From the NCBI RefSeq assembly GCF_900142985.1, contig NZ_LT670849.1, positions 1,116,001 to 1,180,000 on the forward strand: a stretch of 64,000 nucleotides of DNA, written 5' to 3'. Below, one piece after another: positions 16,238-45,858 of the stretch. This DNA is from Bradyrhizobium erythrophlei. Its GTDB lineage: Bacteria; Pseudomonadota; Alphaproteobacteria; Rhizobiales; Xanthobacteraceae. The first letter of the stretch is position 1; every line of letters begins with the position of its first letter. Made by a program: the position numbers and the translations under genes. The notes under the pieces are model-generated. The model made no database searches. It was given only the letters and a program-made list of their open reading frames with translations, and was not told the origin of the DNA.

Positions 16238-16408
16238 CTAGTGCGGCGAATTTGAAGTTCCTATCAGTTTTGCTGCGAGTTCGTCATAGGAACTTCAAAT
16301 TCAAAAGCCGCACTAGAAAATATTGTATTCTAGTGAAGTTTTGGATTTGACATTCGCTTCGCGGACTCGCGGTAATGTGGGTAGCGAATGTCAAATCCAC
16401 TCCACTAG
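16238..16408. repeat. Twin-hairpin element, copy A (two inverted 79-nt hairpins)
   Basis: Hairpin A1 (16238-16316) pairs CTAGTGCGGC with GCCGCACTAG (10 bp), then has an unpaired AAAA on the 3' arm (16303-16306), then a perfect 17-bp stem (16248-16264 with 16286-16302) and a 21-nt loop. Hairpin A2 (16330-16408) pairs CTAGTG with CACTAG, has an asymmetric internal loop on the 5' arm, a perfect 16-bp stem (16343-16358 with 16383-16398) and a 24-nt loop. The linker AAAATATTGTATT (16317-16329) is 13 nt. Both hairpins begin CTAGTG and end CACTAG. The flank AACTCCACTAG at 16231-16241 equals the end of hairpin B1, hinting at a third, eroded unit. The element ends 11 nt before the next start codon. 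Confidence 0.85.
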
Positions 16409-16419
16409 TATAGCGCGTG

Positions 16420-17088
16420 ATGCGCCAGACACCCGTTTACATCGTTTGCTCGCCGCGCCCGCTCGTCGGCAAGACGCTGGTCGCGCGCCTGTTGAGCGAA
16501 TTTCTGTTGCTGAAGAACGGCAACGTGCTGGCCTTCGATGTCAATCTGAAGGAGCCGTCGCTCCTCGAATATCTGCCCGACATCACCGAAACCGCCGAAG
16601 TCGACGACACCTTCGGCAAGATGGCGCTGATGGATCGCGTGATCATCAATGACGGCGTCGCCAAGGTGATCGACCTCGGTTTTCACGTCTTCGACGAATT
16701 TTTCGAAATGACCGAGGAGATCGGGTTTGTGAAGGAAGCGGTCCGCCGCGGCATCACACCCGTCGTGCTGTTCCTCGGCGACACCGACCGCGTCTCGGCG
16801 CGAAGCTATCCGACGCTACAGCGCCAGATTCCGCGAAGCTCGCTGGTGACCGTCGACAACGAATATATCGTGCGTGGCGAAATGCCGGAGGCTTTCACCA
16901 CGGGCAAGACTCTGCACATCGGCGCGCTGCCGACGTTTCTCAAGACCTATGTCGACCGGCTCTCCTTCTCGTTCACCGACTACCTGCGGAACGAGAGGGA
17001 TACGTCCACCGAGCTGCATCAGTGGATCCGCCGCAACTATATGAGCTTCCGTGAGCTCGAACTGAGTGTGATTCTTCAAGGGTCCTAG
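16420..17088 (+). CDS. ParA-like P-loop protein, shorter paralogue of upstream gene
   Basis: The 222-residue protein has the P-loop SPRPLVGKTLVARLLSEFL at about residues 9-27. It keeps GKT but lacks the KGG signature lysine of ParA/MinD, so ATP handling may differ. LEYLPDITETAEVDD and DRVIINDGVAKVIDLG align with the upstream ParA-like protein. Translation starts at ATG 16420 or the adjoining GTG 16417. No ribosome binding site is visible because the twin-hairpin element occupies the leader up to 16408. A palindromic repeat follows the stop. Confidence 0.72.
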   Translation: MRQTPVYIVCSPRPLVGKTLVARLLSEFLLLKNGNVLAFDVNLKEPSLLEYLPDITETAEVDDTFGKMALMDRVIINDGVAKVIDLGFHVFDEFFEMTEEIGFVKEAVRRGITPVVLFLGDTDRVSARSYPTLQRQIPRSSLVTVDNEYIVRGEMPEAFTTGKTLHIGALPTFLKTYVDRLSFSFTDYLRNERDTSTELHQWIRRNYMSFRELELSVILQGS

Positions 17089-17090
17089 TT

Positions 17091-17207
17091 GTCGTCCCTG
17101 CGAAAGCAGGGACCCATACGCTGCGGCCGCTCAATTTGCGTTGGGGGTGGACGGCGTTCCAACAACTAGCATCGGTGGTTATGGGTCCCGGCGTACGCCG
17201 GGACGAC
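17091..17207. repeat. Bradyrhizobium-type palindromic repeat (GTCCCTGC / GCCGGGAC family)
   Basis: The left end, GTCGTCCCTGCGAAAGCAGGG then ACCCATA, is matched by the right end TATGGGTCCCGGCG then TACGCCGGGACGAC, giving an inverted repeat of about 117 bp. Each end also folds on its own (CCCTGCGAAAGCAGGG and CCCGGCGTACGCCGGG). It fills the gap between two convergent genes and could terminate both. I recall similar palindromes as very common in Bradyrhizobium and Rhodopseudomonas genomes. Confidence 0.75.
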
Positions 17208-28598: not shown

Positions 28599-28767
28599 CT
28601 AGTGGAGTGGATTTGACATTCGCTGCCTGCCTAGCCGCGAGTTCAAAAGCGAAGGTCAAATCCTAAACTCCACTAGAAACATATGTTTGCTAGTGGCCCT
28701 TTGATTCTAACATTCGCAAAGTGGCCGCTGAGAAGGAATGCGAATGTTAGAATCAAAGGGCCACTAG
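28599..28767. repeat. Twin-hairpin element, copy B (two inverted 78-nt hairpins)
   Basis: Hairpin B1 (28599-28676) pairs CTAGTGGAGT with ACTCCACTAG (10 bp), has an unpaired TAA on the 3' arm (28664-28666), a 16-position stem with one mismatch (28609-28624 with 28648-28663) and a 23-nt loop. Hairpin B2 (28690-28767) is a perfect, unbulged 28-bp stem with a 22-nt loop. The 13-nt linker AAACATATGTTTG is nearly palindromic. B1 shares its inner stem GGATTTGACATTCGCT with hairpin A2. B2 has a different stem. The element ends 23 nt before the MoxR start. Confidence 0.88.
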
Positions 28768-45688: not shown

Positions 45689-45858
45689 CCAGTGCCCACT
45701 TTCCGAAGTTCGTGCACCACTTCCGCGCCCACCTTTGACGAACTTCGGAAAGTTATGGGCACTGGCAAATTAACGAATTCTAGTACCGCTTTATCGATCT
45801 GAAGTCCCTGATCGAACTCGCCGCTTGTGGTGCAGGGACTTCAGATCGGCGGTACTGG
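45689..45858. repeat. Twin-hairpin element, copy C (two inverted hairpins of 77 and 79 nt)
   Basis: Hairpin C1 (45689-45765) pairs CCAGTGCCCA with TGGGCACTGG (10 bp), has an unpaired TTA on the 3' arm (45753-45755), a perfect 15-bp stem (45699-45713 with 45738-45752) and a 24-nt loop. Hairpin C2 (45780-45858) pairs CTAGTACCGC with GCGGTACTGG (one G:T pair), has an unpaired TTTAT on the 5' arm (45790-45794), a perfect 16-bp stem (45795-45810 with 45833-45848) and a 22-nt loop. The linker is 14 nt. It lies between two minus-strand genes and touches the GNAT start codon. Confidence 0.85.

Follow-up and report, generated by a model that had tools for sequence, protein, structure and literature searches.

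What are the three long twin hairpins that lie dispersed in a 64,000-nt stretch of the Bradyrhizobium erythrophlei genome (the whole of which is called the window below), and what put them there? These elements, A (16238-16408), B (28599-28767) and C (45689-45858), each consist of two halves joined by 13-14 nt, and all six halves fold as long hairpins, so that the positions and anatomy given in the original prediction are borne out. Its placement of a bulge on the 3' arm of the first hairpin and on the 5' arm of the second, with none in the second hairpin of B (B2), is likewise confirmed; in B2 the arms are perfect over 29 bp (29/29 complementary), and the TTT in one arm has its complement, AAA, in the other. 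Two kinds of hairpin unit, alpha and beta, can be told apart, and their arrangement in the window is given here with scores from covariance model R1 (see below); the linkers were read from the sequence and carry no strand.

16238..16316 (79 nt), + strand: element A hairpin 1, alpha; outer arm CTAGTGCGGCGAATTTGAAGTTCCTA, AAAA bulge on the 3' arm; 85.8 bits, unit in model
16317..16329, no strand: element A linker, 13 nt, AT-rich
16330..16408 (79 nt), - strand: element A hairpin 2, alpha (CTAGTGGAGTGGATTTGACATTCGC); 82.2 bits, unit in model
28599..28676, + strand: element B hairpin 1, alpha; 79.4 bits, unit in model
28677..28689, no strand: element B linker AAACATATGTTTG, 13 nt
28690..28767, - strand: element B hairpin 2 (B2), beta by eye; 67.5 bits, unit outside model
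45689..45765, + strand: element C hairpin 1, beta; foot CCAG/CTGG, a changed CTAG; 73.9 bits, unit in model
45766..45779, no strand: element C linker, 14 nt
45780..45858, - strand: element C hairpin 2, alpha; 68.1 bits, unit in model

Element C thus has the order beta-alpha and element B, by eye, alpha-beta. Element A is atypical because it is an alpha-alpha twin, a rare type that is probably of recombinant origin.

Copy number and distribution

Model R1 was built from 33 units, among them five of the six window hairpins, which therefore match by construction; the six score 67.5-85.8 bits, the lowest being B2, which lies outside the model. In the rest of the window R1 finds, at E <= 1 and besides opposite-strand readings of the six, one partial match (16 bits, E 0.08). 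In the complete genome, a single contig of 7.53 Mb, it has at least 150 matches (150 of 3427 candidates scored), all with E <= 3e-13. A separate hairpin scanner, which also passes a few palindromes of other kinds, found 30 units in 21 sources from this genome (the window and loci L016-L035) versus 1 in the reversed sequences, and exact CACTAG-N8..20-CTAGTG junctions number 89 in the genome versus 34 for the reversed pattern, a control that ignores the rarity of CTAG. As CTAG-like feet are required by the scanner and by the junction pattern alike, the constancy of CTAG is inflated. A sample of 1.264 Mb (the window and 60 further 20-kb stretches) holds 123 units; apart from 7 that are single or fused, they form 56 pairs and one quartet, counted as two twins. 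Its 58 twins extrapolate to about 345 twins genome-wide; at ~168 bp each, this apparently undescribed family makes up ~0.8% of the sampled chromosome.

Matches to R1 occur, with the B. erythrophlei genome counted each time, in at least 36 of 60 genomes at genus level and at least 86 of 149 at family level (E <= 0.001), and at order level in at least 49 of the 297 genomes sampled (17 families; E <= 1e-5). The counts for relatives are lower bounds, obtained with strict filters and with at most 150, 79, 31 or 16 candidates scored per genome. Further copies, on which the original prediction made the existence of a family depend, are thus clearly plentiful, and the scan that it proposed, with a covariance model built from the units, yielded many matches both in the genome and in its relatives. 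An exact 26-mer is present at at least 80 loci; the records, many of which are MAGs, bear the names Bradyrhizobium, Afipia, Nitrobacter, Xanthobacteraceae and Hyphomicrobiales. Relatives of element B are found on plasmids, two from Martelella and one from Aminobacter (72-76% identity over 93-100% of its length); the plasmid collection gave no match for one element each from relatives G101 and G010, and the phage collection gave none for element B.

Unit anatomy and stem pairing

The unit is mostly 73-80 nt long and the whole element ~160-171 bp. Above its CTAG foot the unit has a 9-10 bp outer stem starting with CTAGTG, a 3-nt bulge (mostly AAA) that is confined to the 3' arm, an inner stem of ~16 bp whose core reads, for example, GACATTC or GAAGTTC, and a loop ~20-25 nt long. 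This loop is partly conserved, with a GCGAGTTC-like or GCGGGCACTTT-like motif that was absent from the original prediction.

Units were typed by similarity to 22 hand-labeled references (10 alpha and 12 beta, both element A units among them). Of the 227 linker-joined inverted twins that were typed, 225 combine an alpha with a beta unit and the other 2 are alpha-alpha; the lack of bulge asymmetry in B2 kept element B out of this count. The description of each element as an inverted pair of one unit therefore holds for the inversion, which is seen in 244 of 275 linker junctions (+/-), and fails for the single unit, since nearly every twin joins an alpha to a beta. The partners have base 7 in common in 211 of the 225 alpha-beta twins, and differ at positions 8-9, which are usually GG or AG in alpha and CC or TC in beta. 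The linker is itself oriented: read from alpha to beta, it has a final G in 170 of 178 cases and a T before that G in 174. The spacing between neighboring units less than 40 nt apart is 13 nt (n=218), 12 nt (n=18), 14 nt (n=33) or one shared CTAG (n=57), a count that took in loci L001-L015, so that element A entered it twice. Single hybrid hairpins also recur, in which an alpha outer arm is combined with a beta outer arm, as though a deletion had removed the middle:

hybrid hairpins: L020:16303-16378, L024:13779-13877, L026:9322-9414, L039:13008-13083, L185:1269-1343

Stem pairing was tested on 23 units of less than 75% identity, with 26 stem pairs and 500 shuffles. Double changes are found at 21 of the 26 pairs (13.9 when shuffled), which bears out the compensating stem changes claimed earlier. 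Paired cells amount to 92.7% versus 73.0% and double-changed cells to 122 versus 38.0, values that 0 of 500 shuffles reached, and when the partner is slid by 1-3 columns pairing falls to 23-43%. The number of pair types is a weaker signal (42 versus 37.5, reached by 19 of 500 shuffles). Over 548 units the stem mismatches include 86 G.T and 111 A.C; as G.T is not in excess of A.C, pairing appears to be kept at the DNA level, since RNA wobble would not give this. Bulge asymmetry is missing from 21 of 634 scanned units, through loss from one arm or matching on the other; B2 is of the latter kind, and at least one of the 21 (L067:17793) resembles a different repeat.

Mobility and target site

Seven copies in genome G010 are 97.7-99.4% identical over ~165 bp and have unrelated flanks. 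Two copies in G401 are 99.4% identical over 170 bp, three in G114 are 98.8% identical, and in G101, where the stretches were picked around matches, 39 of 46 twins have a neighbor at 95% or more. The best of 46 twins in the B. erythrophlei genome reaches 92.2%; as none reaches 95%, this genome may have lost the mobilizer. Eighteen empty orthologous sites with joined flanks were found at 4 of the 7 G010 insertion sites, and at the other three no empty site aligned. The TA is kept in all 18, which read CTAG in 11 cases, TTAG in 4 (with an alignment gap in two of these readings) and CTAA, TTAA and CTAC in one case each; these 18 leave out weaker spanning matches such as those in G035, G037 and G219 at site 6 (71-73% identity) and in G227 at site 2. 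Whole elements also sit exactly in the internal CTAG of other elements, giving the chains +|+~-~- (n=7) and +~+~-|- (n=4), and tandem elements with one common CTAG occur 12 times. Inner and outer end variants decay alike, and the duplication is TA or CTAG. The target is scarce: the 1.264-Mb sample contains 679 CTAGs versus 4384 expected from base composition (~6.5 times rarer), and 150 of the 679 (22%) lie within units.

A preference for insertion at stop codons, striking at the first empty sites, was considered and rejected: relative to other CTAGs, element ends at gene stops show no consistent excess in the B. erythrophlei genome (12/67 versus 236/1050) and some elsewhere (17/86 versus 11/72 in the G101 stretches, 68/232 versus 112/645 in the named loci, which come partly from common contigs, and 7/14 versus 20/68 in G010). 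No clear replication-strand bias was seen in the 45 twins of three B. erythrophlei segments (orientations 3/8, 7/10 and 11/6), of which segments 2 and 3 are contiguous blocks picked after the matches were known. Two solo 72-nt beta-like hairpins in G101 (L106:18374-18445 and L108:17845-17916) lack a bulge, have CTAG at their ends and lie in unrelated surroundings, perhaps a case of single-unit mobility.

Nature of the elements and candidate mobilizers

Given the observations above on copy number, build, the alpha/beta rule, stem covariation, mobility and target, the elements are probably non-autonomous miniature mobile elements of ~160-171 bp that move whole into CTAG. Two other readings concern the stems. 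One is that they covary through template-switch correction of quasi-palindromes during replication, the hairpins having no role of their own; we regard this as possible but doubtful. The 21 bulge-less units, with B2-like cases among the kinds seen, are the residue that such correction would be expected to leave, so that folding selection and correction could both have acted, and young G101 copies carry 26 compensated double changes beside 38 single-arm and 4 uncompensated double ones. On the other hand, ~97% of units keep their arm asymmetry and the loop of ~20-25 nt stays unpaired, and thus correction does not simply perfect the palindrome. Arm identity may be maintained by selection on folded DNA, by such correction, or by both. 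The other reading, that each element is a transcribed regulator or terminator selected for its RNA structure, would suit stable stems near gene ends and the REP-containing RNAs reported in Bradyrhizobium 3' UTRs (PMC5082802), but is very unlikely in view of the G.T and A.C counts, the nearly equal use of the two orientations (106 versus 119), the ordinary frequency of ends at gene stops in the B. erythrophlei genome, and an Rfam search of the 64-kb window at gathering score that returned 0 matches.

The remaining alternatives concern the enzyme. The original prediction likened the elements to REP/BIME sequences and pointed to a REP-associated transposase. There is indeed a REPIN look to them, in the bulged hairpin, the tetranucleotide at its foot, the inverted pairs and the mobilization in trans (PMC8266576), and a single-strand Y1 enzyme (RAYT or IS200-type) might read the folded hairpins and CTAG foot. 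Y1 genes are also commoner in unit-rich genomes (9 of 20) than in genomes without units (3 of 20), and PF01797 is present in G101, G110 and G114. However, PF01797 has no match in the B. erythrophlei genome (E <= 0.001) or, at E <= 0.05, in G010 (0 candidates) and G401 (5 candidates scored), the last two of which hold copies of 99% identity or more; just 2 of 20 Y1 loci (1.6-3.4 kb each) have any unit; proteins that appear RAYT-like also exist in G021, where no unit match was found; and an insertion strand bias is not clear in the three segments above. Gene presence, locus flanks and the genomes with fresh copies thus rule against a RAYT/Y1 mobilizer, and the RAYT link is not upheld; a Y1-read REPIN/BIME-type element is, we think, largely refuted and quite improbable.

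An ordinary MITE, an internal deletion derivative of IS630 or IS5/IS427 with matching terminal repeats, is a somewhat better but still unlikely candidate. MITEs of these groups (such as Bru-RS with IS711, the latter presumably of the same group as IS5/IS427) are like the twin elements in their TA/CTAG or YTAR target, and their terminal repeats are unmatched in a comparison made with IS ends. IS711 is reported to use YTAR with duplication of TA, and to favor Bru-RS palindromes in Brucella (PMC2266754), much as IS427- and IS630-type sequences are found here exactly in twin-element CTAGs (L296 and L280 in G101 and G401; L361, L366 and L350 in G101). CTAG/CTAA-type ends are carried by IS427-type elements (PF13340) in G119, G401 and G101 and by CTAG-targeting IS630-type elements in G010 (whose CTAG-targeting IS is of this type), G101, G119 and G395, and the G395 IS630 even begins CTAGTG. 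Against such a parent, the 16 CTAG/CTAA-type ends compared (from G119, G401, G101, G395 and G010, with non-CTAG ends left out) have nothing in common with unit arms beyond CTAG (lowest shuffle p 0.0355, uncorrected), the element has no interior beyond a linker of 13 nt, and a hairpin-ended parent was not found. PF13358 (IS630) is present in 7 of 12 genomes, including G010, G101 and G114, but has no match in the B. erythrophlei genome, in G401 with its fresh copies, or in G123, G083 and G347; with its absence from the first two and its unlike ends, IS630 was rejected as the mobilizer. PF13340 is found in 10 of 12 genomes (12 matches in G010, 8 in G101, 7 in G114 and 5 in G401, IS-rich genomes being a confounder) and has no match in unit-carrying G347 and G123; one G347 twin pair is merely 81% alike. 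The non-CTAG ends of those PF13340 elements that were compared in G010, G114 and G395 leave the IS5/IS427 group alone as a weak and rather unlikely candidate for the mobilizer, and these ends together with the lack of IS630 in G401 mean that no single IS family covers all the fresh-copy genomes. CTAG-targeting ISs share a target with the twin elements, which falls short of kinship.

No autonomous copy was seen among the solo and far-apart units and unpaired arms checked in the fetched stretches, which gave only truncated, solo or fused units with no gene between ends, and no transposase gene recurs as a neighbor among the 543 ORFs (of 2416) located within 400 nt of a unit, whose clusters were inspected by eye. 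For the mobilizer of these non-autonomous elements our best guess, and a weak one, is a DDE transposase that targets CTAG and acts in trans, possibly from more than one family.

On the mobile-element reading, each element is built of a CTAG, an alpha hairpin, an oriented AT-rich linker of 13 nt, an inverted beta hairpin and a second CTAG. As one unit the twin probably enters a pre-existing CTAG, or more loosely a TA preceded by C or T, and leaves CTAG at both ends, which amounts to a duplication of TA or CTAG. The cut sites would be the outer ends of the two hairpins, and the alpha/beta difference, in which pairs 8-9 are usually flipped, may mark the left versus the right end. By offsetting the inner arms by 3 bp, the 3-nt bulge may bar the inner CTAGs from serving as ends. 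A DDE enzyme acting on double-stranded ends alone leaves unexplained that the two arms within a hairpin agree more closely with each other than alpha does with beta. We raise, tentatively, the possibility of a new class of bacterial miniature transposon with two obligatorily different folded-DNA ends, hairpins or cruciforms in which pairs 8-9 are usually purines in alpha and usually pyrimidines in beta, read by an undescribed enzyme that cuts at CTAG and inserts the element into CTAG, and with several co-adapted alpha/beta subfamilies across the order. The family is unusually regular, so its end-recognition rule should be readable from sequence, and the genomes with 98-99% identical copies offer direct test beds for the mobilizer.

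Among known repeats, the Rhizobium RIME is intergenic, ~108 bp long and composed of two large palindromes; it differs from the twin elements in size, the feature compared here. REPINs and BIMEs with their RAYTs are similar in being many dispersed non-autonomous palindromes in inverted pairs that move in trans. They differ in that REPs measure 20-40 bp whereas twin units are mostly 73-80 nt, that GTAG lies beside (5' of) the REP palindrome whereas CTAG is paired in the stem foot and is also the target, and that nearly every twin has two kinds of unit. The intergenic palindromes Br-REP1 and Br-REP2, likewise from Bradyrhizobium, have no arm in common with the units in their printed consensus, by eye (PMC5082802). 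The default maxima of PMC12306157 for palindrome (32 nt) and loop (11 nt) are such that twin units would be missed. The original prediction recognized no named family, and neither a name nor a recognized description of twin hairpins was met with in the literature searched, which lay mostly outside subscription papers and included the available portions of PMC2680597 and PMC2573895. GTAG/CGTC-tagged repeats are described from the same or related hosts, Bradyrhizobium and Rhodopseudomonas, and at 20-40 bp are unlike twin units; the main text of that report makes no mention of CTAG and gives the CGTC repeats no known transposase (PMC3733652), a lack in alphaproteobacteria on which the twin elements may bear. 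The window holds one other palindromic repeat, at 17085-17205, that is apparently of the CGTC type by resemblance (CGTCCCTGCG...) and has its own ends, CTAGTTGT/ACAACTAG.
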